Shown piece after piece: positions 15,059-24,364 of a stretch of DNA of 64,000 bases; position 1 is the stretch's first letter, and each line of letters opens with the position of its first letter. The DNA is from Nitrososphaeria archaeon (lineage in GTDB: Archaea > Thermoproteota > Nitrososphaeria > Conexivisphaerales > DTJL01): contig JARVJU010000008.1 of NCBI GenBank assembly GCA_029775965.1, positions 1 through 64,000 of the forward strand, in the 5' to 3' direction. The notes beneath the pieces were generated by a model, which saw only the letters and a list, made by a program, of their open reading frames with translations, ran no database searches and had not been told where the DNA came from. The translations under genes were made by a program, and so were the position numbers.

Positions 15059-15994
15059 TTGGATGGTTATGCCATAGGAATTGATATAGGGGCAACAAAC
15101 ATGAGGGTCTGCTCTATCGATAGCAATAGAAGACTGCTCTGGAGTGAGAAGCATTATTTAGACATGAGCTCTCCTCCCGATTCTTTTCTAGCTCAGATAA
15201 AAAAGATAATCATGAAACATAAAAGCTTATCCCCTATCTCAGTAGGAATAGCTGTAGCTGGTTATGTATCTATGAAGAGCAACAAGGTTCTGAAGATGCC
15301 GAATGCTGGGATAGGAGAATTTGACCCTAGTGTAAGTATTGAAGAATTCCTTGGTGTCAAGCCATGGATCATAAACGATGCTGTCGCAGCAGTTATCCCT
15401 GAGTTTCTGGTTGAAAACGGTATGAAAGAAGGAAACATAAGCGATCTGGTGTTCATCACACTCAGCACTGGAATAGGGGGTGGTATTCTGTTGAACGGCA
15501 GAATCGTAGCAGGAAAAGAAGGCAATGCACACGAGGTTGGACATATAGTCGTAGATTATGAAGGTGAAATGGAATGCGCATGTGGGGGAAGAGGACACTG
15601 AGAGGCGTACTGTTCTGGTGCAAACTTACCTAGATTTGCTATAAAGACAGCTGGTCAAGTAAAATCTTTACGTGGTAATAATAAACTTGATGCCAATAAA
15701 ATATTCAGCCTAGCAAAAAAAGGAGATAAAGCAGTAGCTGGAGCTGTTAATAAAGCGATCAAGATAAACGCAGCTGGTTTTGCAAGCGTGGTAAATGAGT
15801 TCTGGCCTGATAAGCTTGTCATAGGAGGCTCCCTTGCCCTGAGTCAATGGGAGAGTTACGTAGTTCCTTCTCTTGAAGCATCAAAGAAATTAGTTTCACA
15901 CGATATACCGCAGTATAGGAAGAGCTTCTACGGAGATAGCGTCAGCTCTTACGGCGCAGCCCTATTCTCTCTATCACCATATACGTTCTTATGA
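15059..15994 (+). pseudogene. ROK-family sugar kinase (glucokinase-like) with a single in-frame TGA at 15599-15601
   Basis: AIGIDIGATNMRV...TGIGGGILLNGRIVAGKEGNAHEVGHIVV...CACGGRGH[TGA]EAYCSGANLPRFAIKTAG...DKLVIGGSLA...; both halves are in the same frame and no other stop occurs. Confidence 0.85.
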
Positions 15995-18001: not shown

Positions 18002-20902
18002 GTGATCGGGATGCAGGCAAGAGGTGCATTTGCCCTTTTTTCCAATGAAGTTCAGTCTGTACTTGGGTCGCTATCTATCAGAGAACCCACACCTCCACAG
18101 CAGGCAGCTATCCCTGCTATCTATGAAGGCCAAAATGTCCTCTTGGCTAGCCCTACAGGATCTGGAAAGACGGAGGCAGCTATTCTACCCATAATAGATA
18201 GGCTTGTGAGAGAAAAAAGGGAATCAAACTTGGGAATAAAGGCCCTTTATATCTCTCCTCTTAGAGCTCTCAATAGAGACCTCTTAGACAGACTTGAGAA
18301 GGTGTGTAAACAGCTTGACATAAAACTATCTGTTAGGCATGGAGACACATCTTTGCAGGAAAGGAGGGTTCAAAGCCTTTCACCCCCCGATATAATGATA
18401 ACTACCCCTGAAACCTTGCAGGTTCTGCTCGTATCCAGACGGATAAGAAGTTACTTGTCTACTCTGAGATGGGTTATAGTTGATGAAATTCATGAGCTTG
18501 CTTCTGATAAGCGAGGAACACAACTTTCTGTATGCTTGGAGAGGCTTGCACAGGTAAGCAAGGAGGAGTTTCAGAGAATAGGTCTTTCAGCTACCATAGG
18601 AAATCCTGAGCTGCTTGCTTCTTTTCTGGTTGGAGTTAACAGAAGCTGCAAAGTGATAAAAGTAAGCCCCTCCAAAGCATTTGAATACACTGTAAAGTAT
18701 CCGAAGCAGCAGGATGAGGATAAAAGGTATGCAGAGAAAATGCTAACTTTTCCTTCAGTAGCATCAAGAGTTAGACTCGTAGCCTCTTTAATAAAGCAGG
18801 GTCCGGCTATAGTCTTCACAAATACAAGGTCTGAGGCAGAGATCCTTGCAAGCAGGCTAAGGCTTCTGGAGCCAGATATAAGAATAGCAGTTCACCATGG
18901 GAGCCTATCCAGAGGCAGTCGGTCGAAGGCTGAAGAGAGTCTTAAGAGTGGAAATCTTAAGGCAATAGTTTCAACAAGCAGCCTAGAGATGGGGATAGAT
19001 GTAGGCATACTGAACATAATAGTGCAGTACGGCTCACCTAGGCAGGTAACAAGGCTAGTTCAAAGGGCAGGAAGAAGCGGTCACACTCTAGCTAGGGTAA
19101 GCAGATGCGTTATAGTGACGCAGGATTCAGATGATACCTTTGAAGCAGGTGTAATAAGCAGATTTGCGTTGAAAGAGATGTACGAAGATACGGAGCTTTA
19201 CAACAAACCTTATGATGTACTAGTTCAGCAGCTGGCTGGGCTTCTCATAGAAAGAAGAAGCTGGAAGATTGAAGATATTTACAGTTTGATCAAAAGGGCA
19301 TATCCCTACAAAGATCTTGAAAAGATAGAGTTCGAGAGAGTACTGGACTTCATGCAGTCAATAAGGCCAAAAATAGCAAACTATAGAGAAGGAATACTGT
19401 CAAGGCCTTTTGATAACAAAAATCTGTACGAATATTATTTTCAGAATCTTTCGATGATTCCGGAGACCAGACAATATCCTGTAGTATGCGGAGATGAGCT
19501 TGTGGGGAGCCTTGATGAAGAGTTCGTAGCCAAGGAGGGAGATATAGGCAAGAAATTCATTCTAGGCGGCAGTCCTTGGAAGATAGAGCAAGTCTTTGAA
19601 GGGAAAGTCTTCGTAAGAAGGGAGAAGGACGCTCTGGGTGCGATACCAACATGGGTTGGTGAAGAGATTCCAGTGCCAGCAGAGGTCGCCATGGAAGTTG
19701 GTAGAATAAGGGGGGAGCTTGCGAGTATGTCCATCTCTTCGCTCGGCAAAGAATTTGAAGTTAACAAAGAAAAAAGAGTTGAAACTGGAAAAATAGCTGA
19801 ATTTGCAGCTCAGTACAATATGGATAAAGATTCCATGACTCTTGCTGCAAAGGAAATCATAATGCACAAAGAATTATCAATTCCTGTGCCCAGTGATAAG
19901 TTTGTTACTGTGGAGAGAGCTAAGGATCTGGTAATAATACATACACATAGGGGATTAAGGGTGAACAGGACCGTTTCAAGGCTTCTATCTGCTATTCTTT
20001 CGATTGAAAGAAAGATAGTAGCAAGCGAAGACCCATACAGAGTAATACTGGAAGGGAAGGGGTTGACGGCTCTTGAAACTGCAGATGAGCTGAAAAATTT
20101 AGCAAGCAAGGATATAGAGGCAATACTGAAAAATTCGTCTGAGGAATCTGGGCTTTTTAGAATAAGATTCATGCATGTAGCTAGGAAGATGGGTGTACTA
20201 GAAAAGGATGCAGACCTTACAAGCAACCTGCTCGACAAGGTACTCCAAGCTTATAAAAGGACAGTTGTGTTTGATGAGGCCTGGAAGACCTTTGCCCATG
20301 AAGACATAGATATACGTGGAACAAGCAGATTCATATCTGATATATCTTCAGGCGTCATAAAGATAGAGGTTATCGAAGGGTTGAAAGAACCTACCCCAAT
20401 TGCAATGATAGGTCTTGAAGAGATGATGAGAAAAGGGGAAGTGATGGACCCAAACAGGTTAAAGAGATTAGCTATAGAATCTGCAAAGGCAAGGTCCTTG
20501 GGTAATACTATCAGCTTGGTTTGCACATCATGCTGGAAATACTCTGAAGACGTATACCCTGCGGAATTAAAAGACAAGCCAAAATGCCCGTTCTGTGCTT
20601 CTGAGAAGCTGGCATCTTTAGAAATCGATACAGAAGAGTTAGACAGCTTAATGAGAAGGATGAGAATAGGTTCAGGATTAACAGATAGGCAGAAGAAGCT
20701 TCTGAGAAAAGCCAAGAGCAGCGCCGAGATTAATCAAAGATACGGTATACTTGGTATTGTTGCTCAGAGGTTCGATATAAACAACGATGAGATTAGGCGC
20801 ATTCTAGATGCTCATGCAAGTGCAGATACATCGTTCTTTGCTGAACTAGTAGAATCTGAGAGGAAAAACATAATTAAGAGATTCATCAGGAAGGCTGACT
20901 AG
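18002..20902 (+). CDS. lhr: Lhr-like DEAD/DEAH-box helicase
   Basis: ASPTGSGKTEAA, DEIHEL, GLSATIG, VQRAGRSGH, and C-terminal Cys4 Zn ribbon (CTSCWKYS...CPFCAS). Confidence 0.85.
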   Translation: MIGMQARGAFALFSNEVQSVLGSLSIREPTPPQQAAIPAIYEGQNVLLASPTGSGKTEAAILPIIDRLVREKRESNLGIKALYISPLRALNRDLLDRLEKVCKQLDIKLSVRHGDTSLQERRVQSLSPPDIMITTPETLQVLLVSRRIRSYLSTLRWVIVDEIHELASDKRGTQLSVCLERLAQVSKEEFQRIGLSATIGNPELLASFLVGVNRSCKVIKVSPSKAFEYTVKYPKQQDEDKRYAEKMLTFPSVASRVRLVASLIKQGPAIVFTNTRSEAEILASRLRLLEPDIRIAVHHGSLSRGSRSKAEESLKSGNLKAIVSTSSLEMGIDVGILNIIVQYGSPRQVTRLVQRAGRSGHTLARVSRCVIVTQDSDDTFEAGVISRFALKEMYEDTELYNKPYDVLVQQLAGLLIERRSWKIEDIYSLIKRAYPYKDLEKIEFERVLDFMQSIRPKIANYREGILSRPFDNKNLYEYYFQNLSMIPETRQYPVVCGDELVGSLDEEFVAKEGDIGKKFILGGSPWKIEQVFEGKVFVRREKDALGAIPTWVGEEIPVPAEVAMEVGRIRGELASMSISSLGKEFEVNKEKRVETGKIAEFAAQYNMDKDSMTLAAKEIIMHKELSIPVPSDKFVTVERAKDLVIIHTHRGLRVNRTVSRLLSAILSIERKIVASEDPYRVILEGKGLTALETADELKNLASKDIEAILKNSSEESGLFRIRFMHVARKMGVLEKDADLTSNLLDKVLQAYKRTVVFDEAWKTFAHEDIDIRGTSRFISDISSGVIKIEVIEGLKEPTPIAMIGLEEMMRKGEVMDPNRLKRLAIESAKARSLGNTISLVCTSCWKYSEDVYPAELKDKPKCPFCASEKLASLEIDTEELDSLMRRMRIGSGLTDRQKKLLRKAKSSAEINQRYGILGIVAQRFDINNDEIRRILDAHASADTSFFAELVESERKNIIKRFIRKAD

Positions 20903-21437
20903 CCTCTTTACCTGCTTTGGAGAGAATAGAGGTTAGAAGCTCATCTCTATCAACTTCAACCTTGCTTCTCCAGCCTATCTTAATATAGCCTGCATCCTCC
21001 TCTATATAGCCAAGTCTTGTCAGCTTTGCTATAATCTGTTTGATCCTCCATCCTGGAAGTTTCTCAAGTAAAAGACTTTCAATCGCTTTCTTACTCTCCA
21101 TTGTGCCTTTAACATAGAGCTGCGACAGTATAATAGCAAGCGAAGCTGCCTCCTCGATTCTCATCCATCCTATACCTTCCTTTTCTCCTATCGCATCCTT
21201 GGACACAAAAACATACCTGGCTTTGTCCATGTCATCCTTCTGTTCTTCATCCGGAACTACAACAAGCTTCAGGTTGGCTTCGTCTGCCATAATAGAAACT
21301 ATCTTTAATATTTCCTGGTAGTTCTTGCCAGCTAGTCTTTTCAGCTCCCATCCTTTGCATCCAGGCTGGCTGTGCCTTTGAACAAGCAGATAAGAAAAGA
21401 GCTTTTTTGCCTTTCCTTTTAGTTCTTCTTCCTCCAA
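20886..21437 (-). CDS. Tandem winged-helix protein, candidate Nse3/MAGE (kite)-like subunit
   Basis: 183 aa; ...KLFSYLLVQRHSQPGCKGWELKR...YVFVSKDAIG...EEAASLAIILSQLYVKGTMESKKAIESLLLEKLPGWRIKQIIAKLTRLGYIEE...GYIKIGWRSKVEVDRDELL follows the MAGE domain pattern; operonic with Smc5-like and Nse4-like genes. Confidence 0.6.
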   Translation of the reverse strand: MEEEELKGKAKKLFSYLLVQRHSQPGCKGWELKRLAGKNYQEILKIVSIMADEANLKLVVVPDEEQKDDMDKARYVFVSKDAIGEKEGIGWMRIEEAASLAIILSQLYVKGTMESKKAIESLLLEKLPGWRIKQIIAKLTRLGYIEEDAGYIKIGWRSKVEVDRDELLTSILSKAGKEASQPS

Positions 21438-21447
21438 ACATTTTCAC

Positions 21448-22155
21448 CTAAAGTACCACGGCAACAGAGTTATCAGGTATGCCTGAAGATTGAACGATGA
21501 CATACTTGGATGTAGAGGGGTCGTATCTTATGCTTATAACGCCTGATGAGCAGAGGTACGATACCAGAAATGCTCTTTTCACCCTTTCTTTTCCATCATT
21601 TCCCAATACATCTTCATACAAGATGGGTCCATTAGAAACCTTTTCCTTCAGCCAAGATGCAAAGCTCTGCAACTCTTTTTCTATATCATCTGTTAAAAGT
21701 TCAAATTCTTCTAGACCTATCTGCAGCTCGGGTATGGCTTCTAGCGATTCTTTCTTCCCCCATGCTGTCAATTCTATCCAGTAATCAGCAGCCCTTTTCA
21801 ATCTTCTCGAATCTATCTGCCTCACTGAAGCAGGTAGATGTACTGAACTCATGAAAGCCCGAGATAGAGATTCAATATCGGAAGACCTTATTTTGTCCAG
21901 AAGCATGTATGGATCTACCTGTACTCTGCTGAACTGATAGCTTAGCCAATCATTCTGATGGGAGACTATCTTGCTGACAGCATTTACAGCAGCAGCATCC
22001 AGTATCAATTCGTCTCCGCTTAACTTGTCATAACCATGTCTTAACCTGCTGAGAACACCTTTTACATCTACCTCAAAGGGGTCTGCACCACTTTTCTTCA
22101 GCTCATCAGGCAGAGCTGCTATCCTTCTTCTGTATTCCTTTTCTTCTTTAGACAG
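21448..22155 (-). CDS. Candidate Nse4-like kleisin; N-terminus extended past the track start to a probable CTG
   Basis: Frame is open upstream: LSKEEKEYRRRIAALPDELKKSGADPFEVDVKGVLSRLRHGYDKLSGDELILDAAAVNAVSKIV..., resembling Nse4 N-domain; C-terminus RVKRAFLVSYLCSSGVISIRYDPSTSKYVIV resembles Nse4 C-domain; AGGTGA lies 6 nt before the CTG. Confidence 0.6.
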   Translation of the reverse strand: MSKEEKEYRRRIAALPDELKKSGADPFEVDVKGVLSRLRHGYDKLSGDELILDAAAVNAVSKIVSHQNDWLSYQFSRVQVDPYMLLDKIRSSDIESLSRAFMSSVHLPASVRQIDSRRLKRAADYWIELTAWGKKESLEAIPELQIGLEEFELLTDDIEKELQSFASWLKEKVSNGPILYEDVLGNDGKERVKRAFLVSYLCSSGVISIRYDPSTSKYVIVQSSGIPDNSVAVVL

Positions 22156-24046
22156 CTCTTTTCACCTGCTTTAACACTGATGCTGATGAAACTTTATGGA
22201 CCATAATGTAGTTAGCAGTAGAATCGTATACCTCAGGTTCCACAGGCGTTATGACCAGATACTGCGAATTATTCTGCTGTCTAAACATCTCATACACAAT
22301 CTTCATAAAAGCTTGCCTGTTCAGCCTATCCATATGCACATCCATCTCGTCCACTGCGCGGAAGGGTGATACAACAAGTCCCTGCAACGCAAGGAGAAAG
22401 GCCGCAACTGAACTGCTCCTCTCACCACCACTCTGCGTAACAGGATCAAGTTTGACAAGCTGGTCACTCCTAAAAGAGACAAAGAGCTCAAGACCGGCTT
22501 CTATTGGATTATCTTCATTAACAATCATTACCTTACCATTTCCGTTTATCATAGAGAGAACTTTTGTATATCGTTCGTTTATTTCTTTTATCAGTTCCTT
22601 TAGCTTGCTCCTCCAAACGCTGAATCTCTCTTCAACCTCTTTCATGGTTGCTCTTTTGTTTTCATCCAGCTCTTTAAGCTTAGATGACAGCTCATCTATT
22701 CTTACTCTGTAATCATTGTAGAGCTTTTCCACTTCTTCTGGAACAGTTCCAAGCTCTTTCAGCTGAAGCTCTATCAGTTTCTGCTCTGCCTGTATTTCAG
22801 CAAGCTGTCTTGGAGAATACGATATCTGGCCAAGTCGATTCGCTTCCTCTTTTACGGTCTGCAGTTCATTTTCTATCTCTGCCTTTTGCCTTTTTATACG
22901 CCTTTCCTCGCTTTTCATCTCGCCTATTCTGTATTCTAAGACAGCATTCTCCCTGCTCTTTTCGATCAACTCTTTAAGAGAATTCTCCAGCTCTCCTATC
23001 GCCTCTGAGACCATTCGATCAAGCGCAAATGTTGATTCTTCATTAATTTGCAGTTCTTTCTTTAAATCCTCTAGCTTATGATGCACTTCATCTGGTATGC
23101 TTGATCCTTTAACTGTTAAAATATTCTCTATCTTAGGTATCATACTGAGCCTTTCCCTCTTTCTTTCAGTCTCTATCATCTTTGCCAAATTGTCATTGTA
23201 CAAAGAGTGAGATGTTGCAGCCTTATTTTTCGCCTCTTCAAATCTTGATTCAAGTGATGATATATCATCTCCAAGCCTTTTCAGCTTATCATCTATTAGC
23301 GTCAAAGAGCTGTTTATTTTTGCAACCTTGCTCCACGCTTCTTCAACCCTCAGCATATCCAGGTTGCTCCGAAGTTCTTTTATCTTGAGGAGCTTTTCGT
23401 ACTCGCCCTGCCATTTTGTGAGTGCAATGTTAGCTTGCTCCAGCTCTTTCCTCCTCTCCTCTTCTTCAGACTTTATCTTTTCAAGTCTTTCCTTGGCTTC
23501 AAGGAGACTTCTTCTGTAGCTTGATAATCCTACAGCATCTTCAACCATACTCAGCTTTTCCTGAGCAGGTACAGCACTAAAAGAATCTCCAATTCCTTGA
23601 TGCATAATTATGAGCATGTTGTCAGGGTTGAGCCCAAGCTTCATCAGAGTCTCAGTAACCTCAGACTTGTTCGCTTCCTTGAAATCAATCTCAAACCAGT
23701 ATGCACCATCTTTCCTTATGTACCTTGAAAGATGGATAAGATCAGACCGAAATGGCAAAGGCCTTTTACCGTTCCTTATAGAATTGTCCAGTAGCAACGT
23801 TACTCTTGCAATCTCCTTGCCTCTCTTCACAAGGTCGCTCAATCTCCTTGACCTCTCTGTGTAGGCCTGCCCTAAGGCAACAGAAATGGCAAGGAGTATG
23901 CTTGATTTACCCGATCCGTTGGGACCAAGGATAACATTAAGACCAGGCTTAAGCGGCAGCCTGCCATAGTCATAGCTCATGAAGTTCTCAAGTATCACTT
24001 CCCTTATGAATGGCCTTCGATCTTCAGTCTGAACAGGCACGGTCAA
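22148..24046 (-). CDS. Short SMC-family ATPase, Smc5-like
   Basis: Walker A GPNGSGKSS; RLSDLVKRGK; signature QSGGERSSSVAAFLLALQ; Walker B FRAVDEMDVHMDRLNRQ; SQYLVITPVEP. 632 aa with long coiled coil. Confidence 0.8.
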   Translation of the reverse strand: MTVPVQTEDRRPFIREVILENFMSYDYGRLPLKPGLNVILGPNGSGKSSILLAISVALGQAYTERSRRLSDLVKRGKEIARVTLLLDNSIRNGKRPLPFRSDLIHLSRYIRKDGAYWFEIDFKEANKSEVTETLMKLGLNPDNMLIIMHQGIGDSFSAVPAQEKLSMVEDAVGLSSYRRSLLEAKERLEKIKSEEEERRKELEQANIALTKWQGEYEKLLKIKELRSNLDMLRVEEAWSKVAKINSSLTLIDDKLKRLGDDISSLESRFEEAKNKAATSHSLYNDNLAKMIETERKRERLSMIPKIENILTVKGSSIPDEVHHKLEDLKKELQINEESTFALDRMVSEAIGELENSLKELIEKSRENAVLEYRIGEMKSEERRIKRQKAEIENELQTVKEEANRLGQISYSPRQLAEIQAEQKLIELQLKELGTVPEEVEKLYNDYRVRIDELSSKLKELDENKRATMKEVEERFSVWRSKLKELIKEINERYTKVLSMINGNGKVMIVNEDNPIEAGLELFVSFRSDQLVKLDPVTQSGGERSSSVAAFLLALQGLVVSPFRAVDEMDVHMDRLNRQAFMKIVYEMFRQQNNSQYLVITPVEPEVYDSTANYIMVHKVSSASVLKQVKRAV

Positions 24047-24085: not shown

Positions 24086-24364
24086 CTAACGCATCAGCCT
24101 TGCCATAGCTCTGTTTGTAAACCTGTATAATCTGAACTGGAATATCAAGAAAGAAAGGACAAGAAATGACACTGCTACACTGACACTTGCAAGCAGTACA
24201 AATGCACTTGCAATTGATACTATAACGGCCCTCTTAATGAATAGCTGTGACTTTGCCGAGTACTTTACTGACGATGCTACAGCGCGCAGCACTATGATCT
24301 GCCTGCTCACCTTCTCTCGCCATCCGTCGATTCTTCTCATTACACCAGAAGTCTTTATTCTCAA
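24086..24364 (-). CDS. Small membrane protein upstream of the Smc5-like gene
   Basis: 92 aa with central hydrophobic stretch; coding-like, no family recognised. Confidence 0.45.
   Translation of the reverse strand: MRIKTSGVMRRIDGWREKVSRQIIVLRAVASSVKYSAKSQLFIKRAVIVSIASAFVLLASVSVAVSFLVLSFLIFQFRLYRFTNRAMARLMR

Follow-up and report, generated by a model that had tools for sequence, protein, structure and literature searches.

A 64,000-nucleotide stretch of the genome of a Nitrososphaeria archaeon (GenBank assembly GCA_029775965.1, contig JARVJU010000008.1, positions 1 to 64,000; hereafter the window) carries, at 20886-21437 on the reverse strand, a gene whose product is very probably the kite subunit in a compact Smc5/6-type structural maintenance of chromosomes (SMC) complex, specified by a three-gene operon. 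The kite is modelled as two winged helices in tandem, with Nse3/MAGE and Nse1 as its nearest structural relatives, and it is encoded beside an SMC ATPase with heads closest to those of Smc5 and Smc6 (mini-SMC below) and a kleisin with a C-terminal domain closest to that of Nse4, in an operon conserved over many archaeal families. A complete Smc5/6-type core appears to exist outside eukaryotes. To our knowledge, MAGE/Nse3 and Nse1 generally pass for eukaryotic proteins, and where Smc5/6 came from is still an open question. The initial annotation of the gene proposed a MAGE/Nse3-like tandem winged-helix protein and was silent on the same-strand genes upstream; it is these neighbours, an SMC-type ATPase and a kleisin-like gene, that decide the identity of the kite.

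All four segments on which that proposal was based are present and in the order it gave (LFSYLLVQ, YVFVSKDAIG, EEAASLAIILSQLYVKGTMESKKAIESLL and IIAKLTRLGYIEE...GYIKIGW) within a reading frame that opens with TTG. Relatives found in 33 of 61 related genomes, at identities as low as 23-28%, keep the motif PGxKGWELKR.LG..Y, and these relatives and conserved motifs across genomes establish it as a real gene. Of 398 genomes sampled from the phylum, 157 have the kite, and homologues in Thaumarchaeota archaeon UBA160 and Thermofilales archaeon RSNS8 mark it as archaeal. The AlphaFold2 model, built from 21 aligned homologues, has a mean predicted local distance difference test score (pLDDT) of 84.6 and the element order H-H-H-E-E / H-E-H-H-E-E / H-H, that is, two tandem winged helices in the kite-type arrangement. 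When this predicted model was compared by Foldseek with 350,542 PDB chains, rank 1 was Nse3 of the Nse1-Nse3-Nse4 complex (7dg2_C, E 8.7e-8, template modeling (TM) score 0.68 by query length), followed by MAGE-G1, NSE1, a chain of the Wadjet JetABC head complex (8dk1_F) and MukE. Nearly all of ranks 1-13 go to chains of Nse/MAGE, MukE or JetABC, and a protein from outside SMC complexes first appears at rank 14; some of these alignments have a poor root-mean-square deviation, and the ranking and its consistency weigh more than single TM-scores. The model thus has the tandem winged-helix fold of the MAGE homology domain. The outcome named beforehand as fatal to the proposal, a generic winged helix-turn-helix (wHTH) regulator as best structural match, was not seen. 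Winged helices are common and some kite members do weakly match wHTH families; with SMC-complex chains rather than regulators leading the fold search, and a fixed operon of mostly overlapping genes at 56 loci, we nonetheless consider it extremely improbable that the gene is an ordinary winged-helix transcription regulator adjoining SMC genes by chance.

At the level of sequence, searches of PDB and Pfam with the single kite or middle-gene sequence yielded nothing useful, whereas family profiles and member-by-member scans did. The kite profile (21 sequences, against 177,635 PDB sequences) has as its top four matches a MAGE/Nse3 chain (E 0.0036), NSE1 (0.034 and 0.039) and MAGE-G1 (0.45). In separate scans of each kite member against the 24,736 families of Pfam, nine of the 56 members match MAGE (best 2.8e-4) and nine match SMC_Nse1 (best 6.5e-4), every other family being matched by two members at most and SMC_ScpB not being among the most-matched families. 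The kite sequence of the window, taken on its own, matches neither MAGE nor SMC_Nse1, a result that limits the MAGE assignment. Both Pfam families are matched equally often, and MAGE/Nse3 cannot be preferred to Nse1 for the kite. The family profile aligns to Nse3 mostly through its N-terminal half and to Nse1 through its C-terminal half, a division that would fit, without proving, a form that predates the split between the two. The protein has one cysteine and its chain stops soon after the second winged helix; hence, it carries no RING.

The second line of evidence comes from the ATPase. The Walker A, Q-loop, signature and Walker B residues of the mini-SMC are invariant or near-invariant in 21 homologues, and its ATPase motifs are intact. 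In PDB the protein matches Smc5 of human and yeast best (human Smc5, E 9.4e-31), then Smc6 and prokaryotic SMC, and a profile of the 21 homologues places all ten distinct Smc5/Smc6 chains first (204-212 bits), above all canonical SMC and Smc1-4; the N-terminal head searched alone ranks Smc6 first. As a control, the canonical 1186-residue SMC of the same genome matches prokaryotic SMC and Smc1-4, with zero Smc5/6 chains at E <= 1e-10. In a head-domain tree rooted on Rad50, the mini-SMC clade (support 98.6/99) and the Smc5/6 clade (89/98) join with support of 97.8/100, and the approximately unbiased (AU) test rejects the grouping of canonical SMC with Smc5/6 (p 0.034). The PDB ranking, the canonical-SMC control and the tree agree in placing the heads in the Smc5/6 clade, the AU test leaving one alternative grouping that is weighed below; for this placement the tree counts as supporting evidence only.

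The mini-SMC is unusual in what lies between its heads. Only 218-347 residues (median about 255) separate the head halves, versus 831 in the canonical SMC encoded by the same genome, and peaks of proline and glycine are limited to a short stretch at the midpoint and to a joint-like spot near the C-terminal head. SMC_hinge is not among the Pfam families listed for the mini-SMC family, and the SMC_hinge matches listed phylum-wide lie in longer frames, mostly of about 1,180 residues. An identity with the archaeal SMC-superfamily proteins ASRP or arcadin-4 was considered and rejected: the scores are 49 and 39 bits against curated cut-offs of 300 and 860, respectively, and a CxxC zinc hook was found in the arms of none of 53 homologues.

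The middle gene completes the set. The reading frame that opens with TTG, 21448-22008, is too short, as the frame stays open up to a CTG at 22155, overlapping the stop of smc, and the 49 extra N-terminal residues align with relatives. There is no ATG, GTG or TTG at the true start, which is probably this CTG or a nearby codon to judge from the alignment; therefore, automatic annotation would clip the N-terminal part. Searched against PDB, a profile built from 55 middle genes retrieves yeast and human Nse4 first (5e-5 to 1.5e-4) and then the C-terminal and N-terminal domains of ScpA (0.013-0.038). The Pfam family Nse4_C is matched by 24 of the 55 members (best 1.8e-6), and each of the other listed families by one member at most. 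The Nse4 likeness holds for the C-terminal part of the kleisin, the N-terminal part resembling ScpA.

These three genes travel together. In a comparison of the longer loci from about 40 families, 56 of the 57 that carry the full set keep the order smc, kleisin, kite on one strand; the first two genes overlap in 42 loci, and the last two in 49. The kite is the last gene of the operon and there is one kite gene per operon, just as there is one mini-SMC gene per genome among the relatives. Neighbour clustering of the operon loci recovers no conserved fourth gene of the JetD kind. Nse2 and Nse5/Nse6 are absent from the recurrent operon neighbours, no genome-wide search having been made for them.

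The same subunit logic of SMC, kleisin and kite is found in Wadjet/MksBEF-like defense or plasmid-limiting systems (JetABCD), where they work with the JetD nuclease, and a JetABC chain and MukE do figure among the fold matches of the kite. Against an operon of this kind stand the missing JetD-like gene, a mini-SMC score of 26 bits with the JetC models, which is far under its Smc5/6 likeness, the failure of kite and kleisin to match any PADLOC model, and a gene order kept across many families rather than scattered in islands. We hence regard such a system as very improbable here.

More pressing is whether the kite is a divergent ScpB, with the operon a second or derived Smc-ScpA-ScpB copy and its Smc5/6 likeness the convergence of a fast-evolving paralogue. 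The fold is common to kites, the N-terminal domain of the kleisin is ScpA-like, and the AU test does not reject the grouping of mini-SMC with canonical SMC (p 0.10). However, the genome has a separate and complete smc-scpA-scpB operon with a clear ScpB (E 1.5e-31) that does not align with the kite at the sequence level; we tried and rejected an ScpB identity, the hhalign probability for this single-sequence comparison being 0.1%. Moreover, the Pfam matches of the kite family go to MAGE and Nse1 instead of SMC_ScpB, those of the kleisin members to Nse4_C and not to ScpA, and all ten Smc5/6 chains score above every canonical SMC for the mini-SMC profile. Taken together, these make a derived Smc-ScpA-ScpB copy improbable.

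Some results count against the assignment to an Smc5/6-type complex and temper it. Besides the AU result, the head-domain tree includes three eukaryotic sequences taken from alignments, one of them an N-head only. For the kleisin, the structural model is of mediocre quality (pLDDT 76), and the top Foldseek matches, the C-terminal domains of Nse4, ScpA and Scc1, all have E > 0.01. When the kite profile is widened to 56 sequences, the MAGE chain holds at 0.0067 and NSE1 drops to 0.17, and a designed repeat protein ranks above MAGE; a search in the opposite direction, running the Nse1 model of Pfam against 31 genomes, returned chance matches only and none at the kite gene. The sequence evidence on the kite, with its modest E-values, is by itself suggestive, not decisive.

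The features of the operon and of its convergent neighbour are collected in the following table.

Table 1. Features of the three-gene operon and the adjoining helicase gene (window coordinates)
Feature	Position	Strand	Evidence
Kite gene, 183 residues, tandem winged-helix protein with Nse1/Nse3(MAGE) fold	20886..21437	-	Open reading frame, AlphaFold2 model, Foldseek, profile against PDB, Pfam
Kite winged-helix domain A, residues 3-79, bearing the conserved PG-x-KGWEL motif	21201..21431	-	Model secondary structure, conservation
Kite winged-helix domain B, residues 94-154	20976..21158	-	Model secondary structure
Kleisin gene, 235 residues, N-terminal domain ScpA-like, C-terminal domain Nse4-like	21448..22155	-	Reading frame, alignment of relatives, profile, Pfam
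Kleisin C-terminal winged-helix domain, residues 158-222, predicted binder of the SMC head	21490..21684	-	Model secondary structure; ScpA-C and Scc1-C fold matches
Mini-SMC gene, 632 residues, Smc5/6-type ABC ATPase with short arms and no recognizable hinge	22148..24046	-	PDB matches, profile, tree
Mini-SMC Walker A, GPNGSGKSS	23903..23929	-	Invariant or near-invariant in 21 homologues
Mini-SMC ABC signature, QSGGERS	22415..22435	-	S539-G540-G541-E542 invariant
Mini-SMC Walker B, FRAVDE (Smc5: PFRVVDE)	22346..22363	-	Alignment with human Smc5; D566 and E567 invariant
Lhr-type helicase gene, convergent, 3' end overlapping that of the kite gene by 17 bases	18002..20902	+	Pfam WH_Lhr/DEAD_assoc

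By neighbour clustering, the Lhr-type helicase gene recurs at 31 of 58 loci close to the operon, for the most part in the convergent orientation; we take it as a recurrent neighbour and make no claim that it is a subunit. A further family of about 231 residues, whose representative has no Pfam match, lies upstream of the mini-SMC in 18 loci (e.g., L046:3924-4784) in mixed orientation. Within the window, a 92-residue frame at 24086-24364 on the reverse strand, between the mini-SMC and a PfkB-type kinase gene, has no homologue in the examined loci. Farther off, a look-alike of ROK-type sugar kinases (15059-15994, forward strand) is split, by eye, into frames 15059-15601 and 15788-15994, possibly through a frameshift or an assembly error.

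The distribution of the two SMC systems bears on what the complex might do. Most relatives examined have both the mini-SMC and a full-length SMC, as does the genome of the window, and in one family of the class (f7) canonical SMC and ScpB occur without kite or mini-SMC. Conversely, a direct search identified six genomes from three families with a mini-SMC and without a full-length SMC (G063, G072, G079 and G086 of family f14, G114 of f35 and G225 of f37), their listed completeness being 95-99%. The lack of an SMC_hinge match, tried over 84 kite-bearing genomes as a sign of a missing canonical SMC, was discarded, several of these genomes having a full-length SMC with a diverged hinge. The complete operon is also present in Thermofilales archaeon RSNS8 (locus L052). 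This bears on the printed claims that crenarchaea lack SMC-based complexes, with no smc, scpA or scpB in Crenarchaeota (PMC7055376), and that Thermofilum (T. adornatum) has no clear SMC-complex subunits (PMC11946384).

The three proteins suggest a mechanism. In SMC complexes, the kleisin bridges two SMC subunits, its N-terminal domain binding one at the neck and its C-terminal winged helix the other at the cap, and the kites bind the central part of the kleisin and DNA. As there is one SMC gene and one kite gene, the ATPase and the kite are each expected to form homodimers, assembled with a single kleisin. Two mini-SMC heads would engage around two ATPs, with the kleisin linking them through its N-terminal domain on one neck and its C-terminal winged helix on the other cap. 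The kite, probably as a homodimer, would bind the central part of the kleisin and, together with the engaged heads, clamp duplex DNA in the manner of Nse1-Nse3, and ATP hydrolysis would open and reset the clamp. Arms of 110-170 residues without a recognizable hinge suggest a head-centered clamp, or a shorter loop or ring than those of other SMC complexes.

By analogy with Smc5/6, the complex would most likely deal with DNA junctions, with repair intermediates or with DNA topology. The complex most likely acts alongside Smc-ScpAB in this archaeon and is the only SMC-kleisin complex found in some relatives. A variant compatible with an Smc5/6-type identity is that it organizes chromosomes as a substitute for condensin, rather than serving repair, at least where the canonical SMC is missing, as in the six genomes with a mini-SMC alone. 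This is conceivable, yet we rather doubt it: most relatives examined retain both systems, whose roles are hence not interchangeable there, and short hingeless arms are unlike those of loop-extruding condensins. With regard to origins, we are evenly divided over a broader proposal, under which the operon would represent Smc5/6 before duplication, sister to the eukaryotic complex, with a homodimeric SMC, one kleisin and one kite that gave rise by duplication to Smc5/Smc6 and Nse1/Nse3(MAGE); with its compact and apparently hingeless build, it would then be a machine that dispenses with the hinge-closed ring usual in such complexes and, for some archaea, the sole machine of its kind.

If our assignment is correct, a complete archaeal operon of ATPase, Nse4-like kleisin and Nse1/Nse3-like kite would place the Smc5/6 core in archaea. 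It would also offer a three-protein system small enough for reconstitution, one that allows a test of whether SMC function needs a hinge and long arms. A study by van Hooff et al. 2025, which to go by its title deals with SMC complexes derived from archaeal ancestors, may already cover part or all of the present system. We found no report of kleisin or Nse1/Nse3-like partners of the archaeal SMC5/6-related ATPase in the literature searched, which left out that study and Yoshinaga and Inagaki 2021; the word 'kleisin' does not occur in Yoshinaga et al. 2022 (PMC9389158). The ATPase itself is probably already known as a sequence class: Yoshinaga et al. 2022 (PMC9389158), following Yoshinaga and Inagaki 2021, described an archaeal 'SMC5/6-related' SMC class with clade support of 100%/0.99, and the mini-SMC, which likewise belongs to archaeal ATPases that group with Smc5 and Smc6, is very probably a member.

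Among other known systems, Coalescin/Sph (ASRP) and arcadin-4 share with the mini-SMC the character of short archaeal SMC-superfamily ATPases; most ASRPs have the zinc-hook CxxC that it lacks. MukBEF and Wadjet JetABC share the SMC-kleisin-kite design, as the MukE and JetABC-complex matches of the kite reflect, whereas their ATPase is of another family, the JetC/JetD pair has no counterpart here, and the archaeal operon has no nuclease partner and is not patchy. Smc-ScpA-ScpB is closer in its three-gene SMC-kleisin-kite operon and in the N-terminal domain of its kleisin; it differs in occupying a separate operon in this genome and in combining an SMC_ScpB kite with a full-length SMC (1186 residues here) that has a hinge, neither of which is found in the mini-SMC operon. 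Compared with the eukaryotic Smc5/6 core of Smc5, Smc6, Nse4, Nse1 and Nse3, the archaeal operon has one SMC gene and thus an expected homodimer in place of two different subunits, one kite without a RING in place of the Nse1 and Nse3 pair, and short arms without a recognizable hinge in place of long hinged ones. Nevertheless, it is in this eukaryotic core that the SMC heads, the C-terminal domain of the kleisin and the tandem winged-helix kite each find their best-matching counterparts.

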